Positions 2,247-62,064 of a stretch of 64,000 nucleotides of DNA are shown in pieces; the stretch's first letter is position 1, and each line of letters begins with the position of its first letter. The notes below the pieces were generated by a model, which ran no database searches, had not been told where the DNA came from, and was given only the letters and a program-made list of their open reading frames with translations. Position numbers and translations under genes: made by a program. The stretch covers positions 1,674,001 to 1,738,000 of the forward strand of contig JYIP02000009.1 in assembly GCA_001051155.2 (NCBI GenBank). Direction: 5' to 3'. The DNA is from Chrysoporthe austroafricana. Lineage: Eukaryota; Ascomycota; Sordariomycetes; Diaporthales; Cryphonectriaceae.

Positions 2247-2641
2247 TCCGAATTTCTGTGAGGCCTGAAAGAGTAATTGTGTGGGTGGTGATATGGCTGG
2301 GAAATCTAGCGTGAAGACGACTCTGGGAGCAAATGAGATGGGCGAGGCGCTCACAGCGCCGTCAAAGACAAAGACCTCAGACAATGAGAGGCACTTTAAC
2401 AAACGCGTCGCGATGGGGCGCGACGGAAGCCTTTGCGCGAGTGCCACACGCTAGCACGCTCTCGACCGGGGTGGCCGGCGATAAGCAAGCCTCTTCATGC
2501 CTCTCTGTCTTATCGGGGCTCACCCCTGCAAATTTTCTTGGGCTGTCGTCGACTTCCAAGCTCCAGACCTAATTTTTGCTGCTAGTTACGCTCCACCACC
2601 CTTAACAACACCACTCTTGGTGGGACGTTGGCCGCTTCAAG
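2247..2641. promoter_or_regulatory. Divergent promoter region, CMR1 / Mtf2-like gene
   Basis: This 395-bp gap separates two start codons pointing away from each other, so both promoters and 5' leaders must lie in it. I see no clear TATA box. The forward frame crossing it is not supported as coding. Confidence 0.55.
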
Positions 2642-4048
2642 ATGCCGCCCACCACACTCACCCCGTTCCTGTACCAGACGGGGACCCTCTCGAGATGCGC
2701 GCGGGCGGCGGTCTTGCGGTCCGGCTTCCACACGACCGCCCCGCGCAGATACGACGACGACATCATCCCCTTCGAGCTGCCGCCGGACCTCGAGAGGGAC
2801 AGGAGGGGACGTGGTGACAAACGGGACACCATCACACCGACGGAGCGAATCGCCTTCGAGAACATCTTCCAAGAGATCGCGCAGAAGGGCAGGAAGCCCA
2901 AGCTGCCTAAATCCGCCCCGACAGAGGCGAAGAAGAGCGACCAGCACAAGACACCGAGCATCCTCGCGGCTCTGCAGTCGGTCGACCAAGATGGTACCAG
3001 CAGGAGAGACGTTGCCTTCAATGTGAACACCATCATAGAGGATGCAGCCTCGAAATATACCAAATCCGAACCGGGCATCAGCGGCCTCGACCCGCTGTCC
3101 CCGCTGGACTCCATATACTCGGCGGCGGAGCGGGAGAAGGCCCTTCTGCGGTTCCCCCCGACGCTGAGACAGGCTGCAAGGAGGGCGTTCGGCATGTTCG
3201 ACCCAGTACAGCCGGTGCCGACTGTCCAGCTGGAGGGTGGGGAGCAGCAGGAGCTCGGCACGGGGAGATCTCTGGACCCGGTCGAGGTGGTGGGGGCCGC
3301 GCAGTCCGAGGATAAGCTCGCCAAAACGGTGGCGGTCGAGGCAAAACGCCGTGCAGAACGGCTACGGATCAAGGAGCGGATGTCTGCGGCTCGTAATGAC
3401 TTCGAGCTCTGGGATGTGATAGAGCAGGAAGTCTTCCCCCTTGTCAACCGCCTCGGCATTGCGGATTCACCGGCGAACCCCTCCTTCAAGCCGAAGACGG
3501 TTAAGCGAACGAAGAAGAAGGCTCTGGTCGAGGAGCAGAACGAGGCCGAGCCAGAGAAGGCTGAGGAAACCGAAAATTCGGCCCAGTCCGCGCTCGACAT
3601 GGAGGTCTACGGGCCGATCTACCCACAGCTCCTGCTGGAGAGTCTCGAGCTCCTCGACGCCAAGTTCGCCCGGCCGTCGCCCTACGTCGCACACCTCCTC
3701 CCCCGCATCAAACAGCTCGGTCTGGTGTCGTACGTCCTCGGCGTGAGCACGTCCTTCTACAACCGGCTGATGTCTCAGCTGTGGAACCGCTACGGCGACG
3801 CACAGGGCGTGCTGAGCCTGCTCGAGGAGATGAGGCACGCGGGTCTGTATTTCGACGAGGAGTCCAAGTCGGTTGTCCACCGCATTGAGCAGCTGTATAC
3901 GGCCGTAGACAGGGGGGAGAAGGCGCATTTTGCCTCGAAGCTGATGGATATGCCCGAGTACGAGCCGATTCTTGCGGGCAGGCTGAGCCATTGGGTCGGC
4001 CACATTGATCGGAGTATTAAGGAGAGGAGGCTCGGGTTGGGATTCTGA
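2642..4048 (+). CDS. Mtf2/Nam1-like mitochondrial protein
   Basis: Single-exon 468-aa protein. The N-terminus (MPPTTLTPFLYQTGTLSRC, then further Arg and an FHTTAPRR segment) is Arg-rich, lacks acidic residues and looks like a mitochondrial targeting sequence. The middle is charged and probably disordered, with a Lys/Glu-rich stretch near residues 285-310. The C-terminal ~130 residues carry the fungal Mtf2-like C-terminal domain: a block with HLLPRIKQLGLVSYVLGVST, then NRLMSQLWNRYGD and LSLLEEMRHAGLYFDEES. In yeast, Mtf2/Nam1 couples mitochondrial transcription with mRNA handling and translation; the same role here is by family, not shown. The frame is intact and ends 93 bases before a dispersed repeat that marks the start of the accessory island. 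Confidence 0.88.
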   Translation: MPPTTLTPFLYQTGTLSRCARAAVLRSGFHTTAPRRYDDDIIPFELPPDLERDRRGRGDKRDTITPTERIAFENIFQEIAQKGRKPKLPKSAPTEAKKSDQHKTPSILAALQSVDQDGTSRRDVAFNVNTIIEDAASKYTKSEPGISGLDPLSPLDSIYSAAEREKALLRFPPTLRQAARRAFGMFDPVQPVPTVQLEGGEQQELGTGRSLDPVEVVGAAQSEDKLAKTVAVEAKRRAERLRIKERMSAARNDFELWDVIEQEVFPLVNRLGIADSPANPSFKPKTVKRTKKKALVEEQNEAEPEKAEETENSAQSALDMEVYGPIYPQLLLESLELLDAKFARPSPYVAHLLPRIKQLGLVSYVLGVSTSFYNRLMSQLWNRYGDAQGVLSLLEEMRHAGLYFDEESKSVVHRIEQLYTAVDRGEKAHFASKLMDMPEYEPILAGRLSHWVGHIDRSIKERRLGLGF

Positions 4049-4170: not shown

Positions 4171-4266
4171 TGATAACAAGGAGCCCTGATGTTCATTACG
4201 GCAGATAGGAGATCGTATTAATTTTCCCCTCGGCACTCTTGTATTCTTTACGGAATACCAATTTCC
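4171..4266 (+). repeat. Dispersed ~95-bp repeat, copy A
   Basis: The stretch containing ACAAGGAGCCCTGATGTTCA through TTTACGGAATACCAATTTC recurs at 31977-32072 in the same orientation with only a handful of differences. The match stops abruptly on both sides. No coding frame spans it. It may be a solo fragment of a larger element. Confidence 0.8.
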
Positions 4267-5767: not shown

Positions 5768-8700
5768 TTATACAGCAGTATCAGTACCGTAAACCGCTCG
5801 ACAGAGGGCAGACTTTGTCTCTACCGCAGCATGTCCGGACTCCTCCATTACGTTGCCCTTGGCAATCAGTATAACCTCGTTCACCGCGGCTGTCTGCCCC
5901 TGCCGGTAACACCTGCCTAGAGCCTGGCGATACTTGGAAAGCGTGCCCGGCACCTCTGCAAACCATACATTATTGATCCGTTGAAGATTATACCCCTTGC
6001 TGGCGACAGAGCTAACGGCGATCAAGATCTTGTTTTTGCTGCCAGGCGTACAAGCCTCGTTCATCCTCCTAACAACCTCGACCCGGTGCTGCGCCGAAAC
6101 GGCAGAGGCAAGAAGCCAGATTTCGATCTGAGGGGCCAATTCCTCGTCAACGGCCAGGAACATGTATGTTAACGCAGCACTAAGGGCTGCCCTGAAGAAA
6201 ATGATAGCGTGTCGTTTACCTGAACCGTCCTTCGGCGCAGTAGCCCTGTCATTATCGCAAATCATATCGAAAATCAGCCGGCGTATGCATGCAAACTTGG
6301 CCGATCCCTTCTGTAGCTCGTCTGAGAAAGACGCGAAATCCCAGGTTCTTATAGCTTCGCGGGCCGCTTGCCGGAGAGTTTGTCTGCCAGAGAGGACCGC
6401 AGTCTGGATTCGAGCCGGGGTTACCATACACTCTTTGGAACTATAGGCCTGTGGTATAGGAATTCTGGCTTCTTTGTTCTCCGGAAGGCGCATCAGGACG
6501 GCTAGGTATTCGTAGACACCGGCGCGCGAAAAGTCTACCCAGTGGCTTTTACCTGCACCTTGCGTCCTGTCGAGCATTTCCTCTATAACTGTAGCCCTCG
6601 TTGGCTTGAGCTCGTTTTCGTCGCCGGCGGCCTTCCACTTCTTAAGCTTAGCTGTCAACGACCTCTCAACGAGCGTATTAACGCTTGCCTGTAGACTGTT
6701 AAAGGCTATTTTTGTTTGGTCGTCCATGACCGGGTCCAGCTCCAGGACATTCTGGCGCAGCGCCGGCAGATCGTTAATAGAGCGCCCTCGGTATTGCTGT
6801 CCCTGGCGCAGCGCGAGTAACATACCGCGAAAAAAGCGGCCAAGGTGCTTGCTCGCCCGATCGACCGCTTCCTTTCGCTTGACAGGGTCCTGGCTCATAT
6901 TGTTGATCGCCTGCCAGTATACCTTCCGTGCGGCTCGGAGGCGGTCGACCGTCATCGGCTTCGACTCAGTGGGCGGCAATCCTCCTCTTTGACGCCCGCC
7001 CCACTGCTTCCCTTGCTGCTCGAAATGCGCGACGGCATGGTGCCAGGCCGTCGGGCCTTCCTCCACCGTAGTGCCGCACAACGTAATAAGAGAGACGGGA
7101 TGGCGTGTAGCGTTGGCAATCCGCGTAAGTACCGTAAACGCCTCAGTAGCATGACCTATACCTTTGTACAGCTGGAAATCGTCCATGATAATGACGCCCA
7201 AGAACAGTGTGCTTGTCGCGTTCGCAGATGAGCCCGCCATGGGGGGGTACGTTTCGTAGAACCGATTCACGGTTTTGAATCCCATGAGAAAGATATCGCG
7301 CGCGGTACCGTTTTTATTTTCGATCCAGAAACTCTGCAGGTCTTCATCGTCGGACGCCTCTAACGCCTCACTGGCGGCCTCCTGCGGAGCATCAAAGTCG
7401 CCCTCCTGGTCGCCAACAACGACACGGCCTGCCGTATCCTCGACCAGGCGGCGCCATCCGGCCTTGTCAACATACCTGGGAATAGTTGTAGAGCCCTCTG
7501 GAATGCTGCTGTCCAGAGCCCGAAACCGAAGGTCGTCGTCGTCGCAATAGACTTTGTCTTTCTCGGTCATCCATAACTCTCCTAGGTTCGGGGGGACAAT
7601 GATAAGGGCAGGCGAATTGGTCAGATATGTCGAGCAGATCCTGTATGATTCAGAGCTCCGAACACAAGGACACTGAACGGCGGCCGACGACCGTGAAGGA
7701 CAGACCGCATTTTCGATCTGGCCTTCTTCGGGCAGGTGTCGATGCGCCGGACCGCCAGGCGCGGCGGGGCCCCACTCTCCGCTAACTTCCTCCCAGAAAG
7801 CTGCGAGCCATGCCCTGACTCTGAGGTATATCAGGCCGATCGCAGTCTTGCCCAAGCCAATGTCGAAGCCGAGCATGGCTCCGTTTATACCGGTTGTAAT
7901 AGGATTAGCGAGGAGGTTTCGTACGGCGATGAGCTGGTACTGGTGGATAGGACGCGCGAATCCCTTTATATCATACTTGGTAGCAGAGTCTTCGGCAAGA
8001 CGGAACATGCGCCGCGTCGCAGCCCATTCTGCTTCCTTGAATCCCGTTAGACGTTGCTCCTCCGGTACTGGCCCGGCCTGGCTGCTCGCGGCTTGCGCAG
8101 TCTGCGATACGGGTGTCGTATCCTCCGCCTTATCGGATGCCAGGTCGATGGCCACAGGAGCCTCGTTGTCGGCAGGTTGGGAGCCGAGGTCTGCTTGTGG
8201 GAGCGGCGCTGCCGGGGCGGTTTCTGGCACGGAGGCCACCCCTGGCTCTGGAAAGGGCTCCTCCGCGGCTGCGGCGAGCACGGCCGCCTCGATATCAGGG
8301 GGGTTCTTCACCGGGCGCGTCGCTTGGGGTCGCAAGCGCGGGGGCTGAAAGAGGCTCCTGTAGGCTTGCGGGCACGAGCTCGGGGTACAGGGGGGTTCCT
8401 TCGACGCCAGAGACGACCTCGTCCGGCGCGTTGTTTGGAATGCTGCACACTTCGGCGAAGTAGCCGAACGACTCGCTGAAGATCGGAAAGCATACGCCCG
8501 ACCAGATCAGCTGCAAGATCGACGCAAACTTGATCTCGCTGCCGATATCGTAGCTGATACTATATCCTTCGCCGTATTCCACGACCAAGAAGACAGGGTC
8601 TTCGATCTGAATACCGCAGTCTGCAGCAAGCCATGCCCGAAACCGCGCGTAGTCAAAATGGTACGGCTGGCGCTGTTCTCCGGTGGGCATGCCTGGTCGG

Positions 8701-10059: not shown

Positions 10060-11640
10060 ATGGATCACGACGCGCACGATTACCAGGGCGGCGCTGCCCA
10101 GAGGACGGAGGAAATGGCCACAAACCAGCCAGAAGACCGGCCGCAGCCACCCTCACGATCGTCTGCTCAGCCTGCGCATACGACGCCCGGCCGCCGCGCC
10201 CCCTCCGTTCCGCCTCGTGATCAGAGGTCGTCCCCCGGCAGACGCCTTACCATACAGACACTATCAAGTGCCGGACTAGCAGCGCGCCGACCAGACCCCG
10301 GGCTGTCCGACATGCTGCCGAGCCCACTTAGGCCCACGCAGCGCGCGAGCTTCCAGGTCCAAAGGGCTTCCGTTACCGCGACGTCCGCGAGCGTAGTATG
10401 AGCCACAAAGCCTTCCCTCGCTCCCTTGCTCACAGCTAACGCGGGCTCTTACTAGTTTCGAATACCACCCGCGGCCGGACGGCGTCCTCCTCCTCTTGAT
10501 CCTTACAACGCCAGGTCGCCAGATCCCAGTCATCCATCCCAGGCACAACTTCGTAGCGCTCAGCTCCTTTCCGCCAGACCGGTGCCGACCACACATTCCC
10601 CCCGACGCCTAGGGTTGGGCGCGTCCTCCGTCGTTCCCCAGCTACAGTCCCAGCCCGCCCTGCTGTCGACGTCGTCCGTCTCACCGCGGGAAGACCCATG
10701 CCCGTCTAGTGCCCAGGGCCCGGCAGCAGCCGCTAGCCTGCCCCAAACGCCCAGCCCAATGGGGTTGCCAGGTCCCTGCCGGCCGGGCGAAACCCAGGCG
10801 AACCCCCCAACCCCAGCCGCCTCACGTGATACCGCGGAGACGACGCCGGTCTGCGATGGTGGCAGCGGCAGCTCGCCTGACCGCAGCCTCGCCGGATCCG
10901 CGAGCCCTCTCCACGACCTACCCCTGGGCCTCGACGGCTCCGAGGACCGCCGAACGTTTTTGAAGAGACGCGCTGGTAACGCTGAGGCTGCGGGTGCCCT
11001 GGCGGCAGGAAACCCGCCCAAAAGAGCCAAGACCAGCGCGCCGCGCGCGTCTCCCGACGAGGACGGACCACGGCCCCCCCAGCCCCCGCACCGCTACGAC
11101 AATCACAGCCAGACCCCTTCCATGTGTAAACTGCTTTCTCCACTCGTACACGATACGTAACGACCAGTGCGTTGCGATCAGGGCGGCCAACGGCACGAGT
11201 ACGTATCCTTACCTCCTCGGATGAGCTTATGCTAATCGTATAACGAAGTGCGCTACGCTTGCGACCGATGCGCCAAGAGCTCTATCACCTGCGACGCGGT
11301 CCCCGATAGCGTCGCTGCCGAGATGCAGAAGTTCTGGGCGGAGAAGGATACAATGCTCAAGATACAATTTCGAACCAGGTACAAGGCACTTCGAGAGTCT
11401 GTGATGCTGGCAGACCCGACAAGCCGTACTAAGCTCGAGAAGGATATGAAGAACAAACTGTACGTATATGCCGTGAATAGCGTCGACATGTCGGAGCAGA
11501 TTAAAGAGATCCGGCACGTTATAATACAGATGATCAAAAGCGAGATCCCAATACCTGCTGGGAAAGAATGGCTCCTCGACCCGCAAATCTGGTACATGCC
11601 GTCACGAGAAGAGCTACTGCAAGGAAATGGGATATGGTAA
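10060..11640 (+). pseudogene. Gene X1: Pro/Ser-rich Cys-cluster protein (module 1)
   Basis: The start is ATG at 10060 (MDHDAHDYQGG). The frame is open to a likely 60-nt intron (about 10396-10456, GTATGAG...GCTAAC...ACTAG) and then continues in phase to 11160 as a Pro/Ser/Ala-rich region with a nuclear-localisation-like NPPKRAK. A one-step frame change, plausibly at the C run near 11074, is needed to reach CVNCFLHSYTIRNDQC. After an intron ending near 11248 the frame reads YACDRCAKSSITCD and a helical C-terminal part (FRTRYKALRESVMLADPTS, then KEWLLDPQIW), stopping at 11640. CxxC...C and CxxCx6C resemble a diverged fungal Zn cluster. Gene X2 at 22.2-23.4 kb shares the FLHS block, the TCD/SCD block and the RYKALRE block. 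It may be intact if the frame change is an intron or a sequence error. Confidence 0.5.
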
Positions 11641-12374
11641 GGCGATAGCGGGCGAGAAGGAAGGTAGGCTATTAGTTGCGCCAATATATCGCAAGAGGAC
11701 CCAACGAGCTAGCGTTGTATGAGAAGTACCAAATGACAAAGGTATCCACGCAAGCCCAATAGAAGTCCATATATCCTGCTTACAGGCAATCCCATTTCAT
11801 CTACGGTATCAGTACTGTGCCCGGGATGCCTCTCCTTACTATATAAGACAGCCGGGAGGAAGAGGCATGTCTGTGCAAGCCCTAAGAAGAAAACGATTAA
11901 AAGAATGAAAAGACAGGAAAAGGGAAGAATGATAGCAACGGGAAAGAACAGAGGGGCAGGCCTTATCTGGTCGTTCCGGGCCGGACCGAGCTTTATAGGC
12001 AGCGCCCAGCATTCCTGTAAAGGCCCTAAAAGCCCGCGGCTTTCAGTGGCGCGCTCTGCAACGGACGGCTATAGGGTTTTCCGGCCAGGTAGGTCAACTG
12101 TTTCCTACGATATCCCTAGACTACCCGATTCATAAAGGTTCTGTCAGCGGTGCCAGCGCTACCAAGACGTATCTCGTCCCTATATAACCGTTCTGCCACA
12201 GGATAACGATATATGCCGCGCCCGCGCAGGCCCTCCCCCGCCTCACGACCCCCCGCTACCTTTCGACTGCGCAAGTCCGTTCTCTTCCTCCCCCCCCCCT
12301 CTCCTCGCGCCATCCCTTTCTCCTTCTGCCCAACCACTAGCCGACTTCCCACTGCGGACGCAAATAGAGCCACC

Positions 12375-13214
12375 ATGCCTCCCTCCGTACCGCCAGATCC
12401 AGCCCCGCAAGAGCAGGACGCACCGAGCCGCAAAGCCCGACAGATCCCATGCGAGAGCTGCCTTAAGGAAGAGTTGCGAAATCTCGAAGATCGCAATTAC
12501 AAGCCCGTCTGTAAGGACCAGCTATATCAGCACCCCTGCCATATCCCTATGCCCTGTCATAATCCTGACATTTAATAGCATGCAAGAGGCAAGGCTACGT
12601 CGTGTATCCAATATGCAAAGAAGAAGACCAAGTGCGTTCCCGTGAATGCAGATAATGCCCATGTGCAGGCGTGGCTCCAGATCAAGCAGGAAGGTCCTGC
12701 GGCAGACGCTATCGCTCGCTTTGAGAAGGGCTTTCGCCTCTTGCAGCATTTCCAGCACGGCCCCGCTTCCGTATCGGCATTCCAGCAGAGCACCTTCAAC
12801 CTCATTTCCAGCAATACAGTCAATCTTATACAAACGGCCCAGAGCATGAAAGCGCTCTTCGTATATAGACCGAAACGCATCGCTAGCCCCTATACGGAAT
12901 ATTGATACGGCTTATAAGAAGCATATATCGGCGACCTGGCTCAGTATACCGCGGAGCTTCCAGCCGATCATTACAAGCGCAAGAAGCGAGCTGCTAAGAA
13001 ACTCCAAGCTTAACTATACAAGTGCAAATACCTTGACGACACCCTGGCAATGGTTGCTGATTTGGCAAGCAAAGACATCAGTGAGGTGAATGAAGTGCAT
13101 ACCCTACTATAGGTATATAAGCCCGTAGGATATGCTAGGGAGAAGCTTCTTGCTAATAAACGCCTGTAGCAAGCCGCTTATAGGAGCAAGGGCAGCGGTG
13201 CCGACGGCAGCTGA
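12375..13214 (+). pseudogene. Gene Y1: small Cys-cluster protein (module 1), RIP-broken
   Basis: ATG at 12375 sits in a strong context (CCACCATG). Exon 1 reads to PCESCLKEELRNLEDRNYKP with a further Cys; an intron of roughly 100 nt follows. The next block, KATSCIQYAKKKTKCVPV, continues in one frame as a helical region (HVQAWLQIKQEGPAADAIAR). That frame runs to 13214 but is cut by TGA at 12903 and by several TAA/TAG, for example in KKLQA-stop-LYKCKYLDD and VHTLL-stop-VYKPVGYAR. The excess of TAA/TAG at positions where Gln fits suggests C-to-T RIP. The homologue Y2 (23.5 kb) has ELRNVENAAYRPAC and ACIRYAAKKEKCSPV at matching places. The Cys spacing suggests a zinc-binding or DNA-binding fold, but no family is assigned. 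Confidence 0.5.
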
Positions 13215-14340: not shown

Positions 14341-16061
14341 TGATCCAGTACGCATGGCGGCAGCGCTTATAAGGGAGGTTAGAGAAGAGGCGGGGGCGTG
14401 GAAAGAGGCTACTTCGAGAGATTGTAACTGCGGTTCCGTCTAAAGAGGCATGGATATGCTCCTAGTCTTTTGCGTATGGGTGGGCCTTTTGAGATAGCAG
14501 GCTGTCTGCATACAGGAGCACTGCCGTCGTCTGCTCTCTTATCATCGCCGACTGCGCGACGGAAGACGTACGATCGCTTGAAGATGCTTCCTTCGTCCGC
14601 TAGGGCGCGGCGGCGACTGTCTTTAATGGTATGAAGGGAATATTTGATTTGCAGTGAACGAACGTCCCTGTCCGATGCTATTCCTGTGTGAAAGAGAGTT
14701 TGTCGCGCTAGGTGCGTCGGATTTGAAGAGCGAGTCGGGTCGTTCGCATCGATTGGACGGTATAATGGTAGTTCGGGCTTCTTCGAACTGCGCCGCCTGA
14801 CGACCGGACTTGTTTTTGGCGTATTGGGTCAGTAAGGTGCCAGGCGTTTCAGACGGTCTAGCGGGCAGGTCTGTAGCGCCTGGCGTGTTCCCCGAGCGAA
14901 GGGCAGTCGTATAAGCAGCGTAAGAGGCCTTCTGGACGACAGATGGCTTTCGTCTGGCCGTCTGGAGCCTTTTGCTCTGTAGGTTGCTCGACGTGCCCGT
15001 AAAAGCCCCAGGTGCCTCTCTTATTCTGGCTCCCTACGAAAAATGCACTGCCGTTCCGATCGCGCAAGAGGCAAATGTGATTGATTCTAGTGTAACCATG
15101 CAAGGCTGTAAAGAGCCAGGCATGGAATGACTGCTTCCCGGGTTGTGTGCTGCTCCGTCGTCTACGATGCTGGCTGCAGGTACGGACGCCTCAGGCGCAC
15201 GCACAACGGGGTAAGGGAGAGGAGGAAAGAAGAAAAGGAAAAAAGAAAAAGAATACCCCCGCCCGTCCCAAGTCCAGCAAGACAGCTGGAGTAAACCCGT
15301 TCGTTAAATGCCTTTCTTCCCCGAGCCTCTTCAAGCGACCCCCTGTAGCCAATACTGGCCGTCCCGAAGCTATTGGGCGCGAGCGTTCTCAGGTCGTCCG
15401 GTGCATGCGGGACGAGGCTTTGGCGCGCGCGGACTGCCGCAGCGATATGGCCTCTGGCTTCAGATCCCGCCTGATCGAAAGGAAGAAAGAAGCCAGCGCG
15501 GGGCCCGTGGCACTACTACCGCCATTAACTGGCAAGGCGGACGCGGACGGCGAGGGGCGACCCTAAGGCGCGAGCGACGAAGGACAAGCTCGAGGTTCCG
15601 TATACGAAGACCCGGGCTGGCCGCCGGACAATAGCACGGCAGCAAGCTCGAAATGCTCCCCGTAGCCTCCGCGGCGGCACGCGCGCGACAGCTCGACGGT
15701 CGTACGGCCGACAGAAGGCAGACAGGGGGTAAGACAGGGTCCAGGCCCTATACGGGATATCAGCGTGGGTTGTGGATAATCAAGATGCAGTATGGGCGTA
15801 TAAATAAAGCTGTCGGCAAGGCCTTAACCTGGCCTTGCTTCCTCCTATCTCTGCTTTCTTTCCCCAGACAACCACTACTGTACATGCCGGTCACAATGCC
15901 GCCTTGGCCATCCGATACATATTCGCGGGAACCATCGTAGTCTCCTCTGACCTCGTCGCCGCCCAGGCCGAAGGCTCGGGCGACCCTCCTGCGCCGACAC
16001 CCTCTACCGCATACCCAGCCACGCGGGGGCGGTATGGCGAAAAACCGTTCGCTCAGTACGG
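14341..16061. other. Region without a confidently read gene
   Basis: Short frames occur on both strands. A minus frame at 14858-15103 (GYTRINHICLLRDRNGSAFF) is followed by stops; plus-strand fragments near 14580-14700 look weakly coding. A purine-rich tract at about 15215-15260 is low complexity. The right end should contain the promoter and first codons of the histone-like gene, whose start I could not fix. Confidence 0.35.
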
Positions 16062-16730
16062 ATAGGGCCCATTTATCGTATTGGGAAGAAAAGGAAGGCG
16101 GGGCTGCCAGGTCCTTGCCCGAACTCCCGCCCTACTTTCCGCAAGCATAAAGCGCCTATTGCCGAGCAGCAGAAACGGCCGGCGGCAACCCCAAAGAGCC
16201 CCCGGGCGCGACTAGTAGCGACGATACGCAAGGCTAACAAACCGGCATTACGGAGCAACGGTTCTTCCGACACGTATAGGTTCGCCAAGAAAGCTGCGAA
16301 AAAGACAGGGAGGGGGCGGCCGCTACGCCTGCGGCAGAAGCGGCGGCTCAAGCCAGGCAGTACGTACGGCTCCGCGTACTCGTATACGGAATAAGACTAA
16401 GGAATAAGATAGCATTTTGTTAACTATAGCCTAGCACGAGCGCTACGGGAAATTAGGTATTACCAAAAGATAGTAATACCCCTATTACCTTTCGAAGCCT
16501 TTAGCCGGCTGATTCGGGAGATCGCGCTGCAAGTCGTCCCGGGCGGATAGGAAATGCGGTAATAGCGGACGGCGCTGGCATTGCTCTAGGAAATGGTCGA
16601 AGCGCATATCGTGGAAATGCTTGCGGGTAATTATAGATAACCTACCCAGGCCATACTTCTAGAGCTTATGCTAATAGAGTAGAAAAGCTGCGCAGCATTG
16701 TGCGTATTACGCGAGGCGGGTTATTGTTAG
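16062..16730 (+). pseudogene. Histone H3 variant (CENP-A-like) relic with one intron
   Basis: Exon 1, open in one frame to 16359, encodes a Lys/Arg/Pro-rich tail of about 100 residues (GKKRKAGLPG, TPKSPRARLVATIRKANKP, AKKAAKKTGRGRP, RQKRRLKPG). A 75-nt intron (16360-16434, GTACGT...TTAAC...CCTAG) joins it to exon 2. The splice creates KPGTRALREIRYYQK, 13 of 15 identical to the alpha-N entry of canonical H3. The fold continues with LLPFEAFSRLIREIAL, RTALALL-stop-EMVEAHIVEML and a last-helix region CAALCVLREAG. After REI there are 12 codons before the pair aligning with FQ/WQ, against 9 in H3, so loop 1 is long as in CENP-A. Seven in-frame stops (5 TAG, 2 TAA, no TGA); the one in LL-stop-E falls on the invariant Gln of the LQE motif. 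The start codon is unresolved; ATA at 16062 may be a mutated ATG. Now non-functional. Confidence 0.75.
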
Positions 16731-17583
16731 CCCGAAAGATATTTACTTATTTAAGAGGGTTTGTAAGGAGCTGTGCTTGCAGTTTTGTTAGTAGCAGAAG
16801 AATGAGGATATCAAGAGGGCATGGTTGGAATGACTGGTATACGGGCGAGCATACAGGCTGGCCTTCTTTCGAAGCGAAAAGGGCAAAAGAGCCTTTCGTC
16901 CGACGGGGCGCACAGGTAGACAGACGGTCGTTCCGGCTCAGTTGGCAAGGCGAAAATGGGCGAAGGGAAATATAGACCCCCCCGCACCCAACCACCCAGC
17001 CGCGGGGGACCTAGAGCGAGCATGTCAACCTTTTACGAACGATAGGCAGAAAATTTTGTCTCGATAGTTTAGGAAGATCCCTTACGGTATACTCTTCGGG
17101 GACCGGAGGGCGGCCTCCGGAAGGAAGACAGACAAAGAAAAGAGAAAAAAAAAAAAAAAAAAAAAAGGAAGGGAGGGGGATAACCCAGTTAGCCGTATTA
17201 GAGGGTTGGGGGGTTACAATATCTTACTCCCAGTCTTACCCCTCGTTATAACTACTAATACCAGAAAGCAGGTAGCCCGACGGGGCAACGATAACTGACT
17301 GACCTGATGCTGGCTCTTTCTCGGTGCTAGCCATATGTATTCGTCCCCCGTCTTGCGTTCGTAGCCCGCCTTTCCGAGCTGCTCTTTGCCACCAGAAAGC
17401 GTCTCTATCGGGCCGGAGCGAGATCTGCGGACCCCCTTCTCCCCGCCCGGGGAGGCGCAAGAAAGCAGGGGCTTGGAAGAAGAGGAGCCATTGCGCCATT
17501 GCGCGTCTACTGTACCACATCGCAATTTATATGCCTGTCCGCAGCCTCGGCGTGAATTCAGCTACTGGACTCTAGGACTATTT
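16731..17583. other. Gap between H3-like relic and SNF2 copy 2, with poly(A) tract
   Basis: I see no gene. A run of 22 A lies at about 17145-17166, preceded by GAAA-rich sequence. Short frames on both strands have no recognisable content. The right part is the 3' flank of the minus-strand SNF2 relic. Confidence 0.4.
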
Positions 17584-20500
17584 ATGACAGGCCCCGCGGA
17601 TCTAGCACAGCCCTATCCCTTTTGCTTTCCGTTTCGTCCAAAAGATCAACCCCGTATACGAATCTCGCAATCGTATCCTTAGCTCTTATCAGGCTATAAC
17701 CAACCTTCTCTATATCATTTTCATTCTCGACAAGAGTAAAGACGCGGACTTCCATCTGTTAGTTCTGCCTATTTACCTTGCTTTCCGCTTGCATTTTCTT
17801 CGAGAGCGTTAAAGGCATTTCGGCAAGAATCAGATAATTAGCCCGCTGGATATTAAACCCTTCGGCGCCGACAGCGATCATGGTAATGAGGACCTTGTTG
17901 CGGGTATCCTGTGTACAGTCCTTGTTCATATAGGCTACGGTTGCATACCATTCCACCATATTCCCTGTCGAAAACATAAACAGGGGCTCGATGCAGTCTC
18001 GCAGCATAAGATGCTGGACGAGGAGCATGTACGTTACGGCCGCGCTGATCGGCTAGCTGAAGAAGAGGATCGCGTGCCGCTTGCCAAAGCCGTCCTGGGG
18101 CGCCGTACGAGGGTTGTTGTCGTCGATCATCTGCTATAGCAGCCGCTCGAGCTCGGCCCACTTGGCTGACGTCCTCTTGAGCTTCTCGGCGTACTTTTGG
18201 AAATCCCATTTCTGGATTGCCTTATCGACCTCGCTCTGCCTAGGGGCGGGCGTGGCTAGTTCCTTGCATACCTTTACCGGGGTTATAGCGGTTACCCTAC
18301 TCTCGAGTATGCCGCGATCGACCGCCTTCTGTGTTAGCAGGACGGCGAGGTAGGGGTACATGGAGACGCGGAGCAGGTCGACATAGACCGACCTCGGTTT
18401 GCCCTCGTTGCCGCCGTACAGGCACTTCTCTCGGACGGCCTGTAGTGTAGGTTCTGGTTTACGCCCAGGCCTTTTTTTCCACTCTGCGTGCTTCCGGTCG
18501 TACTGCAACTTCGCAGCTTCATCGACGCTGGCTACTATCTTTTCAACCGCGGTATGCGTAGGCTTGTCCTTCAACGACGGCAATGCCCTAATCGTCCTCC
18601 TGCAAGGGGGCAGGGGGAGGAGGGGCCGGCCTCGATAGGTCCCGTCGCGGCGCAGAGCTAACAGGAAGAGCCGGAACCAGGACACGAGCGGCCTGGTAGC
18701 TTCCTTGGCCTCTTCGATAGGCAGGTTATTGTAAGCGATCTCGCGGATGAGGCCTAACTACGTCTTCCGGACCGCGCAATACGTATCGACCGTTAGCGCG
18801 TAGGGCGATCCAGGGCGGCATCTCAAGCGCCGCGCCGCGCTCCACTTTTCGTATTCTGCGGCAAAGTGCTCGATCGGACGCTCCCATGCCGAAGGTCCTT
18901 CTTCCAGAGTCGTGCCGCAGAGCGTAATCAGCGTAACAGGGTGCGCGGCAGCCTCGCTGAGCCTTCCGAGCATAGAAAAAGGAACCGTATTCGCCGTCGA
19001 GCCTTTGTAGTGCTCGTCCATGATCACGACGCCGGTCGTAAACTGAGTGCCCTGGCTTGTTCCGATCCTGGGATATTGGTCGAGAAAGGCACGCAGCTGC
19101 GTTCGGGTGACGAGGAAGATATATTGCGCGCTACCTGGTTGGCATGCAACGACTGTCTTCCAGAACCTCTCGTTCTTCCCGCCACGGCCTCTCTGCTTCT
19201 GCTGGACGCGGCCTTGGGTTTCGCTGAGGAAACGAGAGTGCTCCTGCTCCTGCGTCCGCTTCTCGGGCATCGCCGAAGGGTTAGGATAATTCTTGAGGAA
19301 AGTGTAGAACTTGATAAAATTGGTCTCTTTATGGTTGTCGTTATAGATATCCTCCATCTCGTCCAGCCAGCTCCCTGCCAGGCCCGGGGGGATACAGATA
19401 AGCGCCGGCGAGTCGGTTAGGTAGCTCGTACAGATCTAGTACGACTCGGAGTCCTGCACGCAAGGACATTCGATAAGGCACTGGTCCTGCGAAGGGCAGC
19501 CAGCGCCTGCGGGCGGATTGCTCTTGGGGAGATGCTTGCGCGTACCGGAAAGGTTATCGTTCGCCCATTCCTGCTTTACCTCGGCCTATCGTTGCGCGAA
19601 GCGCGCTTTCACTTTCAGGTATACGAGGCATATTATAGTCTTCTCAAGGCCGATATCAAACCCGAGCATGCCCCCGTTCACGCCGTTCGTAATAGAATTA
19701 ATAAAGAGATTGCGGATAGCGATCAGCTAGTACATATGTATCGGCCGCGCTATACCCCCGATAATATATTTGGCACTGCGGTTCTCTTTGAGGCCGAATA
19801 TGCGGAAAGTTCGCTGAAAGTTTTCCATATTGAAGCCCGTTAGCTGCATAGCTTCCGAATCCCCCGCGGGACCCAGGGCCATAGTGATATTAACCGCCTG
19901 GGGAGGGCTATCGGCAGCCGGCTCCTCGCTCATGAGGTCGATCATATCAGGCGCGTCCCGCGCCGGGAGCTTATCGGAAAGCAGCGCCTCCTGCCTGGCG
20001 CCTAACCCTTCGGCGTCTTCGGGGTCTTCCTGCGCATCCTGCTCGTCGGCCGTATCCTGCTCATCGGCCGCGGGCTGCTCATCGGCCGCGGGCTGCTCAT
20101 CGGCCGCGGGCTGCTCATCGGCCGCGGGCTGCTCATCGGCCGCGGGCTGCTTGTCGCCCGCAGGCTGCTCGTCGCCCGCAGGCTGCTCGTCGGCCACAGC
20201 CTGTTGGCCGTCCTTTTCCGCGGCGGGCGCATCTTCCTCGGACGCCACCTCCCCGCGGTCGGGTCTGACATTGATATAGTCACCCCATAATTCGTCGTAA
20301 CGAGATAGGCAGATTTTGCGATCCGCAAGCAGCTGGAAAACTATTCCGAAATCCTATCTGTTTCGGATATCAAACGCGACCGACTCGTTCCGCATGCGCA
20401 CATAGAGGTTGAAGGGGACCTCTGGCAGGAGGCCAGCGGCTTCCGACAGCCATATCCGAAATTTTTCGTAGTCGTACCGGCCCGCCTGCCCTCACTCGGC

Positions 20501-22230: not shown

Positions 22231-23400
22231 ATGGCTACCGAGAACCCTCGGGCGGACGAGGATAACGACGCAACCGGCCGTAACCTTTCGTCTGACTCCG
22301 TTCGAGCAATGCCGCCCCGCTAGGCCCAGTACAGCCGGCGCCCACCCCTTCTAGCACAACCCGCTCTGCCGCCCTTTCGTCGTGCTGCGATACTGCGAAA
22401 CTCTCCCGGCACTATTGCATCGCCTGGGCGCGACGTTCGGTCGCCGTTTAAGCCCAGTCCTTATCCGGTCTTACGCCAGGAGCTGCAACCCTTCGCCACG
22501 CCAGCCCGGCCAGTCCCACAACAGCCGCCTGCACTTCCTGTCTGTCGATCGCCCTCCTCCCCTCCCCGGGACCGTCCTGTATTACCCTATAGCGGCTAAC
22601 ATACAATACCTCTGATAGGTTTCTCGTGCAAAGCGGCTCGTCCCGGCCGTGCTTACGATAACCGACAGCGGGCGCGACAGAGCGCTCTTGCTAGAGCCTT
22701 ATCGAGCTTTGGCCCCCGCCCGACTGGCGTCGCCCACGCGCGGGCTGCTAGGTATGCCGATAGCGAGCTTCGCAGCTAATGCCGGCCAGGACAGGCAGCA
22801 CAGCTCGTCCGAAACCGACCGCGCCTAGATTGCGTCAGGCGCGAACGCTACGCCGCGCATGAACTGTTTCCTCCACAGCGCGACATCCGATAGCCACCAG
22901 TGCATACGGCGAAGACGCCGAGACGGTAGCAGTATGTCCTCCCCTCCCCTCCCCCCTGGTAGTTCGCCACGCGCCCGGCTGATACCGTTCTTTCAGCCTT
23001 GTACGCATGTGCGTAGTATGCGGACTGCAGCATTAGTTGCGATCCGGTGCCCGAGGCCGTCGCGAAAGAGATAAGGGCGTCTTGGGAAAGCAAGGCCGTC
23101 GAGACCGAGACGACATTCCGCTCCAAGTACAAAGCCTTGCGAGAGGCGATCCTGCTCGCGGACTCGACAAGTCCCGCCCAGGCCGAGAGGAATATGCGGG
23201 AGAAGCTTACGGTAAACGCGACGAACGGCTTCCGAGCGAAATGCCGGATCAGAGCATTTCGCCATATCGTCGGGACGATAATGCAAGGCGGGGCCGCTGC
23301 GCCGGCCGAGGCCCGCTGGCTCCTCGACCCCGCGCTCTGGAATATTTCAGAAGACGATACGCCGTCCGACCGCTCTAAGCGCAAGCGCCGAGAGACATAG
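22231..23400 (+). pseudogene. Gene X2: Cys-cluster protein relic (module 2)
   Basis: ATG at 22231 opens MATENPRADEDNDATGR and a Pro/Arg-rich region broken by TAG at 22321 and later TAA/TAG. The conserved blocks of X1 recur in order: NCFLHSATSDSHQC (X1 CVNCFLHSYTIRNDQC; the first Cys is replaced here), SCDPVPEAVAKEIR (X1 TCDAVPDSVAAEMQ), FRSKYKALREAILLADSTS and RWLLDPALWNISED. The last exon (from about 23030) is open to TAG at 23400 and ends in a basic KRKRRET tail. Frame breaks and missing Cys mark it as decayed. Conserved gene order (SNF2 minus, X plus, Y plus) proves it is the module 2 partner of X1. Confidence 0.6.
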
Positions 23401-23446
23401 TTTACAATCTAGATCCTTCGTGTACGGCTATCTCTCTCTGTCCCTC

Positions 23447-23469
23447 TTTTTTTTTTTTTTTTTTTTTTT
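23447..23469. repeat. Poly(T) tract
   Basis: A run of 23 T between X2 and Y2, followed by GTTCC. It lies 47 bases past the X2 stop. Confidence 0.9.
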
Positions 23470-23507
23470 GTTCCTCCCAAGCTACGCGCTCTAGTGGTCC
23501 AGCGAGC

Positions 23508-24110
23508 ATGGCGTCGACTCCCACGCCAGGCAATAAGGCGGCCCTCCGCGGCGACCTTCGAAAGAGCCCGTATGCGAGCAGCTTGCGGGAAGAGCTGCGA
23601 AACGTGGAAAACGCGGCCTATAGACCAGCCTGCTACTATCAGCTATATACGCTCCCCTATCCGCCCCTCCCCCCAACTCCCCTCCTCTCCTCTCCCCCGG
23701 GCCCTGCGGCGCCTTGCACTTTCGGCGCCTTGCTGATCTCCCGCAGGAGCGCAGGCCAAAGCTTGCATCCGCTACGCCGCGAAGAAGGAGAAATGCAGCC
23801 CCGTGGACCCGCAGCACCCGCTCGTGCGGGCATGGCTGGACGGCAGGCAGGCAGGCCAAGACATAAACCCGATCGAGCGTTTCGATAAGGCACGCCGTCT
23901 GCAATAATATCTACTGCACGGCGCGGCCGCGGTGCTGCGGCTGCACGAGAATGCGTATCGGCTGGCTGTCAGCAGCATAAATACCCTGACGACGACCGCT
24001 GACGTGCTTGAGGAGCTTTTCGTATGCAGCAGCCCCCGAAGTGGTTGGCTCGTGGCGCCGCTAGAGAGCAGCCCTGCACCCCGCCTTGCTCTCTGGTCTA
24101 TACCACTCGC
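23508..24110 (+). pseudogene. Gene Y2: small Cys-cluster protein relic (module 2)
   Basis: ATG at 23508 starts MASTPTPGNKAALRGDLRKS, then SSLREELRNVENAAYRPAC, matching SCLKEELRNLEDRNYKPVC of Y1 with its first two Cys changed (SPYASS against IPCESC). A pyrimidine-rich stretch ending CTCCCGCAG looks like an intron, after which KACIRYAAKKEKCSPVDPQ matches KATSCIQYAKKKTKCVPVN. The helical part follows (VRAWLDGRQAGQDINPIERF), then a TAA in RRLQ-stop-YLLHGAA, and a C-terminus shorter than in Y1. Loss of Cys and the stop indicate decay. Confidence 0.55.
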
Positions 24111-26802: not shown

Positions 26803-27884
26803 TTATTCATGCAGCATATTCATCTCGGCATCACGACTAAGGACGCTGCTGTCGCGCGTGCTGCTCTGCGTCTTCCTCTTCTTGTTGGGGGTGGCGGCTC
26901 TGGACCCGCCACCTCCATAGAGCTCATCGAGCTGATCAGGCTGCATTGTTTCTACCACCCATTTCACTGACTTATGATCAGCCTGGACGCGAATAATGGT
27001 CCTAGGTGTTGGCGACGTAATGAACGGCTTAGCGAACTGTATTACCGTCCATGCAAAACGAGCGAACAGATATTCCCTAGCTTGCCTATTGCCAGGGAGA
27101 TGGAGTTCGACATTATGGTACCAGGTGAAGAATTCGGGTGCTGCTATAGGATCAAAACCGTGTACGACATATCGGTCGCCTTTGGATGTAATCGTCCAAT
27201 ATCGGGAATCGAGCCACCAATATATGTCGTTACGGAAGTTGATCATATTTCTGGAATCTTCAGTATCTCTCCGATCCCGTCCGTATGCGCTCATCCCATT
27301 ATTCTTAAACCAATTGCCTTCTTCTCGAGGTATGAGATGGGCTTCCGCTTTCGAATAAGATGAGGCGGTAAGGACACAAGAATGAAATGGATAGCTAAGT
27401 GAAAGAGAAGGCCAGGAAGTAGGGACATGGCCGTGAGGAAATGGCCAGTCGCGAAATGAAGGCACAACGGGATACATTGGCGAACCTGTCGCAGAGGAAG
27501 TTAGTCATATAGCAGACGAACATTGCTATCGTCGCCCTGGGATGATAACCTACTGTCAATAACAAAGTAATACTCTTTGCATAACAGCACATCATCATGC
27601 GGGGTCGTAACCGGTATCTGTCCGTCTCTGTCTAGAGCGAGACGGCCTGACCAAGCATTGTTTGCAACGATCTGACAGGCGACGAGGGCTGTTGCATGCC
27701 AAACTCCCAGACGAGGCGGATTGCCCGTGTCCGCCACTGCGTCAACGCGTGCTAGGCTCAAGAGCTTATTGTTGGGAGCGTCGTAACCAGGGTGCAGGAA
27801 TTGGATGGGCGACATATCGGATGTTGTAAGGGCAGGTAGTGTCAACGAGGGACGAACAATGGCTGGCCGTGGATTGGCGGCCAT
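26803..27884 (-). CDS. Fungal HNH_2-type nuclease-domain protein
   Basis: Two frames make one gene. The 5' part (27884 to about 27522) starts MAANPRPAIVRPSL and contains IQFLHPGYDAPNNKLLSLAR and ALVACQIVANNAW, the N-terminal signature of a common fungal HNH family. The 3' part (27485-26803) contains YPVVPSFRDWPFPHG, the HNH_2-like segment AHLIPREEGNWFKNNGM with DSRNMINFRNDIYWWLDSRY, and a basic tail PNKKRKTQ. The junction at 27486-27521 is unresolved: GTTCGT...GACTAAC...GACAG looks like an intron, but at 36 nt it is very short and leaves the phase off by one, so a 1-nt indel is equally likely. Molecular function in fungi is not established. This gene may mark the right edge of the island. Confidence 0.7.
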
Positions 27885-28097
27885 GGTTCATGTGATGGTG
27901 AGCGGACTGATGGTGAGCGGACTGATGTTGGGGGATGAAATGATGGAAACGGGTGTTGTTTTGTTGTTTTTCCTTTGTTGCTGTTTTTCCTTTGTTTAGA
28001 AATGCTAATTGAGCTTTCCGGCCAGCACGACTGAAGATGAATCATGACTGTCGATTACCTAATCCGTTACCTAATCCGTCGGGCAATGCAAATTATT

Positions 28098-28604
28098 CAA
28101 TGGAGCGGAGGACAGGCCGGAAGCGGCTTGCTGCTGACGGGCCGGCCGGAGCGGAGTGTTCTAAACTCTGTTCTCTGCAAATAATTCCTGAGGAGGGATT
28201 GGTCAGTTTTGAAATTGCCTATTTAGGAAATCTTAGTATGGTAGGTAGTGGGAAGGCGCCGCAGGCAGGCAGGCAAGGGGGGTCTAGGGGGTTCTCCCCT
28301 GGAATATTGCTAGAGCTCCTGAAACCTGAAAATTCTACTATATTTACATACAAATAAGCTAGGCCAAGCTATCAACCTTACAACCAATACTGTCGCTATT
28401 GATATCAATAGTACTGCCGCTATTAACGATACCGCCGCTATCGACAGCAATGCCGCCCGAAAGTAACGGAATTAGCATCGATTTCTAGCAGGTAAGCTTC
28501 AATATCCCCCCCTCCTATTGCTCGTTACGGGGACAGGTAATTACAGCGCAGTTACGAGTACATAAGAACATTCCGCTTCCGGTCCCGTCCTCCGCTCCGT
28601 TAAT
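28098..28604 (+). mobile_element. MITE-like element with ~28-bp terminal inverted repeats, copy 1
   Basis: The left end AATGGAGCGGAGGACAGG, continuing CCGGAAGCGG, is nearly the reverse complement of the right end CCGCTTCCGGTCCCGTCCTC, continuing CGCTCCGTT. The interior has no coding frame but contains ACAAATAATTCCTGAGGA, TTACATACAAATAAGCT and irregular repeats of ACCGCTATCGA type. Full and partial relatives lie at 61350-61930 and 49655-49880. Size, terminal inverted repeats and lack of coding capacity indicate a non-autonomous DNA transposon. The target-site duplication was not resolved. Confidence 0.8.
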
Positions 28605-28901
28605 TCTTAACCGCTTCGCATCCGTTAATTCTTTAACAAATTGGCTTTACTGGGGATTAAAAAATAAACGAAAAAATTTGTCCTACTCCCCGAAGCTTGC
28701 GGATGGCCGAGTAGGGCAAATTTAGCGGAGCGGTTTCGTTTATTTTATAATACAAGGCAAGGTGCCGTTATCTGCCGCCTTGCTGATTACTAAGTGAGCC
28801 ATAGGCAATTTTGTTCGATCTCAGTCCTCTTTCATTTCATCTTGTATTCGATGAGTGCTGGATATCTCCTCAAATGCAAATTCTTGGACGTCGTCTATAG
28901 A
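28605..28901. other. AT-rich intergenic sequence
   Basis: No gene is seen. An imperfect inverted repeat built on TAAACGAAA/TTTCGTTTA and TTGTCCTACTC/GAGTAGGGCAA lies at about 28660-28745. Confidence 0.35.
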
Positions 28902-31976: not shown

Positions 31977-32072
31977 TGACAACAAGGAGCCCTGATGTTC
32001 ATTACGGCAGACAGGAGATCGTATTGATTTTTCCCTCGGCACTCTTGTGTTCTTTACGGAATACCAATTTCA
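31977..32072 (+). repeat. Dispersed ~95-bp repeat, copy B
   Basis: Same orientation and nearly the same sequence as 4171-4266 (ACAAGGAGCCCTGATGTTCA to TTTACGGAATACCAATTTC). Flanks differ completely. This places the same short repeat at two sites 27.8 kb apart. Confidence 0.8.
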
Positions 32073-49654: not shown

Positions 49655-49880
49655 TATCCAACGGAGCGGAATATTTTAAATACTGTTCTCTGCAGAAGTT
49701 TCTCGAAGATGGATTGGTCGGTTTTGAAATCTGAGAGAGGGATTGGTCAAATTCCACGTGTGAAAGTACTTATAGGGCCCCTTCCCTCAGATGAATTCTT
49801 ACGTAGTAGTTGAAAAGGGTAGTCGAAAAGGGTTGAAGAGGAAGGCGTGCTATCGCGTAATAGGTAGTAAGCAATAATCA
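49655..49880 (+). mobile_element. MITE-like element, partial copy 3
   Basis: CCAACGGAGCGGAATATTTT, TACTGTTCTCTGCAGAAG, GATTGGTCGGTTTTGAAAT and ATTCCACGTGTGAAAGT correspond to segments in the same order at 61405-61505, and TAGTAGTTGAAAAGGGTAGT with AGGAAGGCGTGCTATCGCG match 61530-61580. The left inverted-repeat arm and the right half are missing. It sits directly left of the carrier-protein relic. Confidence 0.65.
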
Positions 49881-55357: not shown

Positions 55358-58300
55358 ATGGATCAAGGACCCCAAGGGGATCACTCAGATCAACCTACTC
55401 CGGCACCCGGCCAGCTGTCTCAAGAGAGTGACGCTGCAAACAATGCATCTCCGCATGAGTCTGTACTTCCTTGGAAGTTCCAATGGGAAGACTCCCCCCC
55501 TGGGCAGGAAGTGGAGCAGTACATCTACGGTCGGTTCTCCTATACACATCACTGCATCTGTGCATCGCCCTGACTTGACCATGAAGGCAAGAATGATTCG
55601 ACGAAAGACAATCCTACCCAAGACCACGCTTCCCAGGACACCTCGACCAAGAATACGCTTACCCAGGGCTCGGGGTTTAAACAGCCCTACGCGCACAGCG
55701 ATGAAGACCACGGCATCGGAAAGCCACCCCAAACTCGTGGTGCTAGAGACACTTTGTCTTTCGGCGACCGGGGCACGACTGCCACTGCCGGCGCCTATGG
55801 GCAGCTGGTCCATTTCAGTCAATTCCTCAACTGCGGCAGTTCGGGGATGTTTTCCCTTGATCACGAGGATGTCGGAGAGCCAGCCTCTGGATTATGGAGG
55901 CTAGATAGCTTGGAGACGATAGCGAGAAGCGATTCACAGTTTCGTACGTCAGACTCTAGGTACGGATTACATTTCCCCGATCTAGGGCCACCAATGTCAT
56001 TTCCAGACTTGAGTTGGGTCCACTGGAGGTGGCCACGTTACGAATACAAACAAGGTGCCTTCGAGGCAGCGAAAGGTCTAAGGCTCATCATCCAGTGGAT
56101 GGTACAGGGTAATATCCTGTTGCAACATTGCATTCTGGAGAATTGCGGTGGTAGGCCTCTCACTGTTAAAGCTTCCTTTTCCAAACAGATGGTCATCCGA
56201 GATTTGGATCATGCAGACATAAATTATAAATTCAACAATGTGGAGCGACGGAACGACCTCAGAGAGCGCGGCATGCGACCTGGCCCAAGGGGCTTCAGCT
56301 GGCTGTGTTCCCGCAAAGGTCATGATGGCAAGGGTCATGATGGCGATGCCGAGCAACATCCTCGACCAGAAGACTCCACAGTACCATGGGGAGTAGCTGC
56401 AGTGGTAGCGCTTTCGGTCGATGGAACTTTTCAAAAGTTTGACTCAAGCTCATGGAACCTGAAACTCAGGGGCACAGAATCCAATGAAGGCACCGTCGTG
56501 AAGAAGGTAACTGTGGGTTACAAGATGATCAAGGTCTCGGATTCCACAGACTGGAAGGCTTGCACCTTCACGAGAGAAGAGATGGCACCAACGTCGCTTA
56601 ACAAAATTGCAGCCTCTACGACACATTGCCAGTCATATCCTCAACGAAAGAAACAGTCGGTGTGGACGATGTCGACAATTCCAAATGCGAGTACATCGGA
56701 GGAAAAGAAGGACCTTGTGGATGATCCCAAAGCAGAAGCATACAGTGAATCATCCCAAATCGACTCACTCGACTTCGCATTATGGAGAAACCTTGAGCAC
56801 ATTCTGTCTGTCTGTGCTATCCCTGTACCAGAGCCTCACTCGCAGGGTGCGGAACAAGAATCCAATCTGGATACCTGGGCAAAAGTGGTACCCGTGGCAT
56901 TGACGTGTGGTGACATGTCAAGCCACAGGGTTTGCACGTCCTCAAGTTTGTGCGTATCTCTCCTTGATTTACCCAAAGTCTTTTAGACGCAGGCTATTGA
57001 ACTCCTTCTGACGATCTTCGCAGCCTCGCTTTCAGGTTTCTGGTCGAAGCTGCAAAGCGTCTGAATAGTCTTCCACAAGACAAGTACAGAGCAACTTATG
57101 TGCAGTCAATTCTGAAGCGTATCCATGAGACATGCCAGGGGCATCTCAAGTGGCTGAGCCTCTGCGAAAAGGAACATGAATTTAAGGTTTTTCCAGCTAA
57201 TCACTGGGTCACCGGCAAGAAATTCGCGCATTTCCCCTCCAGTACCTCATGGACTCCGCGAACTCCCTCTGCTACATGGGAGGACCATGGCAATGAATGG
57301 ATCACTCCAAATGGTCCCATTGACACTGCTTTTCAGATCCTAAAGGCAGCAGATTATGCGAGCCTAATCAGATACCCGACTACATATGATATACCAGAAT
57401 TACCGAAATTGGTGGCAGCTTGGGCATCACCATGGGTGCAAGCGCTCCATAAATTCGACAAACGCGGGAAGTATACATGGCCCCATGCCAGGAATGAAGA
57501 GTCCAACGTCTTCAGGCTCAGCGATCATGTATGGATCTGGATGGCTTTGAAATCGTTGGAAGATGATGGAGTAGATGCCTGGTCACTTCTGCAAAATGAA
57601 CAAGATGGGAATATGTCTCTTAGGCTCAGGGTGCTTTTCGGGTTTGGGGATGAATTTGATGTGCGCGTGTTGTGGAGAACGCTGGGGGCCAGCAAAGTTC
57701 AGCGCGAAATCCTCCGTCGCTTTACAACCCGGGACGATAAATCCCAAACGCGAATGCTTGCCATGACCCGGTCTTTGCAAAGTTCCAGATTTTGTTTCGA
57801 CTCTAGCGACACCGTTGTGTTTTACGGACAAGCTCTGGGGCTCTTCAACACTGAGGATCAATCAATCCGCGAGCCATGGGAGGAGACTCTCCAGTCTCAA
57901 CTCAGATACGAGGGAAACCAAGACTCAGAATGGGGTGATACTTTACGTTACGGTCTTGAAATTCTTCTGCGAGCTTCGACCGTCCCCATCAAGAACACAA
58001 CACCAAATACGCAACTCGAGAATGCTCGCAGGGTCCTTATCAAGCATAAAGTCCCGAAACAGCGACCACGGTGTACTCTCAGGTCCCTAATCGAACGCAC
58101 AGCACCAGATGAGCGACTCAAGAATGCGGCGAAAGTTGTGCTTGATACCATGAGCTTCAGTGGTTTCTTCCCCGCAAGGTTGGACACAATGACCAAAACC
58201 CCTCTGAGCTTACTAGAGAGTTATGCCTTTGGGGACTGGAGTATAGACTATCACTTCTACTCCAGCTTTGAAATCCCTCTCATACTTCTCACTAGTGCTG

Positions 58301-60628: not shown

Positions 60629-61349
60629 GACTTCGGTATTCCTCTGATTCAAATCTTGGAAGGGCAGACCGCTGCGGTGTAATGGCCACTGCTCGTCATC
60701 CCTCGCATGTTTGGAGGTCCAGAGCGAGTGGAACCTGCTTGGATGGTCCAGGCATGTCAAGCTTCGGGTGCAGCCTAGGCATGGTCCTCGCATTCATAGG
60801 TTCCAACGTCATCTGCGCCTCAGGAAGAAAACCTTTGCTGGGTTGTGGATTCATCAGGCCATAGACACACGCAAGTGAAGGTCTAGTGACCCCGCCTATC
60901 ACTGGAGTAGGAAGCCACGAAGAAGTTGCTGTGGAGCCTAGATCTGTCCGAGGGGGCATCTCGCCGTCTACTTAAATCACTCAGACGATATCCGCGGCGG
61001 CCTGTTGCGGCAGCATCTGATGGGATGCGACAGAGACGCAGTGCTCTCCAGCCAGCATCAGCATCGAGTCTCGAAATGTTTTTGGGGGCTTCGAAGAAGC
61101 ATCGCTGGATATTTGGGGGGGGGGGTATTTGGGCACGGTTTCCTCTACTTTCAACATCCTACGGTGCGGTGGCCTAGGGCCTGAAATAATTTCGCTTCAT
61201 TCCAAATTCATGCCCAAACTTATTAGGCGAATCGTTAGTCTCAAATCAAATGGTTTCCTGGATCATAGAGGCCGTGAAATTCTCGGGCATGTTGTTGCCA
61301 TCTCGCACGCAATCCGCCATTTTTGCAAGATTTAATGTATGGCTTGATT
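60629..61349. other. 3' flank of the CorA-like gene; no gene
   Basis: No coding content seen. A run of nine or more G lies at about 61116-61125. Confidence 0.4.
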
Positions 61350-61930: not shown

Positions 61931-62064
61931 ATTTATCCGCTCATTTGCCCGGCTAACAATTGAACTCACGAGAATACTAGCTGGTAATTAAATGAGTCGT
62001 TTAAGACTATTTTACTAGGTCATGATGGAGACATGGACAGCTGAACTACGGGCATTTTATCACC

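Follow-up and report, generated by a model that had tools for sequence, protein, structure and literature searches.

The window analysed here is a 64-kb stretch of DNA (contig C22, positions 1674001-1738000) from a genome of 48.15 Mb in 22 contigs, which resembles that of a filamentous fungus in its short introns, DUF3435 matches and CenH3. The forward strand of the window contains the remains of a histone gene that can be read in three exons. Exon 1 (16062..16359, with a putative start) is an open frame running from a basic tail to KPG; exon 2 (16435..16626) covers alpha-N, alpha-1, loop 1 and alpha-2, carries the histone matches and contains four in-frame stops (three TAG, one TAA and no TGA); exon 3 (16688..16791), recognised from the frames and from PDB and profile matches, holds a remnant of the last helix, CAYYARRVIVSPKDIYLFKRV, and a stop. 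Intron 1 (16360..16434), a 75-nt phase 1 GT-AG intron of the form GTACGT...CTAG, was found as the earlier note had described it: its removal joins KPGT to RALREIR and gives KPGTRALREIRYYQK, which is identical at 13 of 15 positions to KPGTVALREIRRYQK of the host H3, and at 11 of 15 to the host CenH3. The RLIREIA, ALL-stop-E and last-helix motifs named in that note are likewise all present in the frames, while its end of the locus at 16730 has to be moved, as the final frame runs on to the stop at 16789-16791.

The putative intron 2 (16627..16687, forward strand, 61 nt, GTAATT...AAAAG, with a weak acceptor) was picked for its fit, as splicing it out brings the last helix into frame and lets the fold be aligned gaplessly with the host CenH3; otherwise, 16627-16687 is a frame-shifting insertion. 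The long basic tail that had been proposed is borne out by composition (K+R 31%, D+E 2%) but not by length, since its frame is open over 147 codons and, among 500 random 3-kb sequences matched in composition, 60 contained a frame as long, so that it is the make-up, and not the open length, that speaks for the tail. No ATG start is present in the open tail frame. The relic is a broken gene, and no histone is made from it today.

There is good support for placing the relic in the histone H3 family. Once its stops are masked and intron 1 is spliced out, it matches the Pfam Histone family (PF00125) with 38 bits and an E value of 2.2e-9 (cut-off 26.4 bits), so the search proposed in the earlier note does give a significant histone fold, while the 37 residues of exon 2 up to the first stop reach only E 0.25. 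In a phmmer search of the PDB, solved H3-family chains are matched across the whole fold (E 2.4e-15), with H3.Y as the top match; among the 60 listed of 176 PDB matches there are H3 types and two H3/CENP-A chimeras only, and no natural CENP-A chain. All six frames of the 64-kb window were also scanned, unspliced, with a profile built from host H3 and host CenH3, which gave three matches at E <= 1, all of them at the relic (1.1e-9, 0.026 and 0.67). When the host CenH3 was used as a query against the whole genome (E <= 10), three loci were recovered, namely CenH3 itself, H3 and the relic (4.6e-5). The relic is absent from the eight matches (E <= 0.001) that the Pfam search of the whole genome listed after scoring 14 candidates.

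Centromere-type or canonical histone

CenH3 is usually a single essential gene. CenH3 paralogues are known from other eukaryotes, and a loop 1 that is longer than in H3 by two to three or more residues is a feature of CENP-A. The host carries both an intact CenH3 (G000:C17:3397.3-3397.7 kb) and an intact H3 (G000:C16:2605.6-2606.0 kb); the top solved match of the former is Cnp1 (9lrv), which we take to be the S. pombe protein. Measured from REIA to R(F/W)Q, loop 1 has 10 residues in the relic, 10 in the host CenH3 and 7 in the host H3, so the three extra residues noticed earlier are indeed there. Read with the putative intron 2, the relic gives a gapless alignment of 92 residues with the host CenH3, of which 40 are identical, and it differs from that gene in being broken, in having its introns elsewhere and in altered LFEDTN and ARRIRG regions; by eye, the two tails are unlike. 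With the host H3 the relic shares the fold and the KPGT-ALREIR-YQK block at 13 of 15 positions, but the introns differ, only 38 of 89 residues are identical and three residues of loop 1 stay unpaired in the alignment. The near-invariant core and 7-residue loop 1 that mark canonical H3 are both absent from the relic.

Scores and tree are less one-sided. Over the whole fold, the CenH3 profile gives 62.9 bits and the H3 profile 61.5, while exon 2 alone favours CenH3 by 7.4 bits (36.0 vs 28.6). A tree of eight sequences leaves the relic outside the CenH3 group: its branch has a length of 1.5 and sits next to human H3 plus CenH3, with a support of 33. Of the columns that distinguish host H3 from CenH3, 26 could be scored (four are gaps in H3 and one is an end effect); in these the relic agrees with CenH3 at 5, with H3 at 3 and with neither at 18. 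Codons for W and Q become stops through RIP; three of the four stops in exon 2 are found where the host CenH3 reads W or Q, and at the start of alpha-2, where CenH3 has W-Q and H3 has F-Q, both codons of the relic are stops.

It is possible that the relic was a non-centromeric, diverged H3 variant, i.e., a fast-evolving paralogue in which loop 1 became longer independently, although this is less likely than the CenH3 type. It would account for the near-tied profiles, for a small tree that does not join the relic with CenH3, for H3.Y as the top PDB match and for the 18 of 26 diagnostic columns that fit neither class. Against it stand a loop 1 of exactly the host CenH3 length within 92 gapless residues, the preference of exon 2 and the stops at the W-Q of CenH3. 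Judging from these sequence comparisons, the relic is likely to be of the CenH3 type; of the earlier description as a CENP-A-like gene the loop length is retained, while the profiles and the small tree give it less weight than was stated. The situation resembles that of the Cid paralogues of Drosophila, which are CenH3 duplicates, in that an extra, diverged CenH3-type gene occurs beside the essential one; unlike those, the relic is dead, fungal and located within a repeat-bounded island.

The surrounding segment

The relic is located between two direct copies of a 95-base repeat, both on the forward strand (4171..4265, 3' of an Mtf2 gene, and 31977..32071), which are 95% identical and enclose 27.8 kb. 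The flanking Mtf2-family gene frame lies at 2606..4048 on the same strand (PF19189, 104.8 bits). Exactly two copies of the repeat were found in the 48 Mb by a genome search that passes over very common words, and the five differences between them are all transitions, four of the CpA/TpA type. From the repeat alone, the 27.8-kb segment looks inserted; no terminal inverted repeat was found for it.

Between the repeat copies there are two modules, each made up of a SNF2-like helicase and the genes X and Y. In the first, the helicase is an open frame of 912 codons on the reverse strand (5771..8506) and is accompanied by X and Y at 11.2-12.9 kb, with copy A of gene X at 11236..11637 and pieces of copy A of gene Y at 12207..12902, both on the forward strand. 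The helicase of the second module (17645..20059, reverse strand) is 37% identical to the first and broken by seven in-frame stops, six TAG and one TAA, and its 3' end is turned toward the histone relic; its X and Y lie at 23.0-23.9 kb, with copy B of gene X at 23017..23397, 38-39% identical to copy A, and pieces of copy B of gene Y at 23379..23904, again on the forward strand. The SNF2 ATPase that had been proposed as a neighbour is thus only in part what was found: a broken helicase does adjoin the histone, but the protein is best described by its helicase-C part, the open copy scoring 34.9 bits for Helicase_C (cut-off 23.5) and 12.2 bits for SNF2-rel_dom, below the cut-off of 24.9, with NCBIfam matches far under cut-off. 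The six-frame scan of the window placed no histone beside the open helicase, and the relic adjoins the module of the broken one only.

Several further elements were recorded in and around the segment. An 18-base tandem repeat of ADEQPA units (19730-20353) lies within the N-terminal region of the broken helicase, and at 14489..15017, on the reverse strand, DNA comparison showed a partial copy, 69% identical in nucleotides, of a gene at G000:C17:2598505-2599023. Outside the island, gene X has further relatives at G000:C17:2983732-2983917 and G000:C21:1994997-1995101, which are 34% and 46% identical to it over part of the sequence; no histone was found in the 9.9 kb around each of them. An HNH_2 endonuclease gene within the island (26806-27894) shares 80-88% DNA identity with a copy on another contig (G000:C16:4055190-4056360), and the part of the island from 26.8 to 32.0 kb has an RIP-like index of -0.34, i.e., the signal is absent, so this part may have moved more recently.

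Elements of the Starship type, which in fungi carry a DUF3435 captain at one end, offer a comparison. Matches to DUF3435 do occur in this genome (at least 23), but among those listed there is none on contig C22, and the 95-base flanking repeat far exceeds the target repeats of Starships, which are usually far shorter. No transposase or recombinase was identified in the frames scanned.

Decay, divergence and origin of the relic

The RIP-like index of the relic is +0.58, compared with -0.53 and -0.54 in the left and right flanks of the island; the broken and the open helicase have values of -0.08 and -0.20, respectively. For 9.0-26.8 kb overall it is low (+0.06). Of the RIP-hit accessory island suggested earlier, a bounded segment, duplicated modules and RIP-like decay of the relic are thus supported, and the damage to the island as a whole is weaker than was stated. 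The genome contains matches to C5 DNA methylases, several of them stop-free, and 15 of the 23 listed DUF3435 matches are interrupted in frame by one or more TAG or TAA stops, which fits RIP being at work in this fungus without proving it. Compared with the host CenH3, the relic has 134 differences in 276 bases. Since only 40 of these belong to the C>T or G>A class, and 14 of the 40 produce TpA, RIP accounts for the stops but not for the divergence. There is no second DNA-level copy of the relic in the genome at E <= 1, and therefore the partner for RIP may have been lost, or the damage may have spread from the neighbours.

The distribution of the changes points to a long coding history. Where host H3 and CenH3 agree on a base, the relic departs from them at 27 of 70 sites in first codon position, at 17 of 71 in second and at 38 of 50 in third; this excess at third positions is significant (Fisher p 3.9e-8, and 1.6e-5 once C>T and G>A changes are set aside), although codon bias of the host genes may add to it. 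A copy that had split off long ago and drifted neutrally ever since should show about equal change at all three positions, and a recent copy little change at third positions. When the same changes were redistributed at random 2000 times, amino acid identity with CenH3 averaged 23.3 (sd 3.1, maximum 36), while the observed value is 40. As the changes are concentrated at third codon positions, the relic evolved as a coding gene before its death, and we conclude from the sequence that protein-coding evolution probably lasted for long and was followed by breakage. Host H3 and CenH3 have the RL|V intron in common; the relic lacks it and has introns at other places, and therefore it did not arise by recent copying of one of these genes. 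Viral contigs yielded no relatives.

With a probability of about 0.6, we read the relic as a pseudogene of a deeply diverged H3 variant, most likely of the CenH3 type, within the inserted-looking 27.8-kb segment. Formation of nucleosomes by H3-like proteins with H4 is established for the H3 family, and the live ancestor would have encoded such a protein, pairing with H4 and replacing H3 in some nucleosomes. Its gene may have arrived with the segment that lies between the two 95-base repeat copies, or diversified within it, and the repeat-mutating defence of the fungus would then have killed it. As the repeat copies are 95% alike and the relic differs from CenH3 at almost half of its bases, the divergence of the histone seems to predate the arrival of the segment; gene conversion could have produced the same picture.

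The same contrast bears on the possibility that the relic is an old duplicate of the host CenH3, which drifted and died in place while the island resulted from unrelated events. The equal loop length, the collinear fold and the CenH3 paralogues of other eukaryotes are in agreement with this, but the missing RL|V intron, the introns that the host CenH3 does not have and a divergence so much greater than that of the flanking repeats speak against it, and we consider it possible but, like the non-centromeric variant, less likely than the preferred reading.

A foreign-looking, long-constrained extra H3/CenH3-type gene in an accessory island would be a rare instance in which a mobile segment brings its own chromatin. 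With a single intact relative, roles of such histones in marking centromeres, in silencing the element or in biased inheritance would become testable; what has been observed so far is the fossil alone. The fuller version, in which a mobile or accessory segment once carried a centromere-type histone with its own helicase and the small proteins X and Y as a private-chromatin cassette that the host silenced by RIP, seems to us rather improbable. More improbable again, and not directly supported, is the selfish chromatin or segregation role put forward in the earlier note, in which the relic would be a working part of an element that biases inheritance through its own centromere-type histone and remodeller: the adjoining histone and helicase relics, the repeat-bounded segment and the two helicase-X-Y modules would suit it, yet the histone is broken and lies beside one module only, the frames scanned gave no transposase or recombinase, and none of the DUF3435 captain matches listed is on contig C22. 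A recent processed or duplicated copy of a core histone, for which nothing beyond the similarity speaks, was ruled out by the relic's own introns, the 38 of 50 changed third positions and the lack of a DNA-level match at E <= 1, in agreement with the earlier expectation that the gene is not a mere copy of the host H3.

Two minor features of the window complete the description. Two long open frames of 470 and 803 codons, with no Pfam or NCBIfam match, lie next to each other at 55574-59412, and three places (28095-28615, 49662-49831 and 61347-61941) contain pieces, 67-89% identical, of a dispersed repeat whose length reaches about 520 bases.
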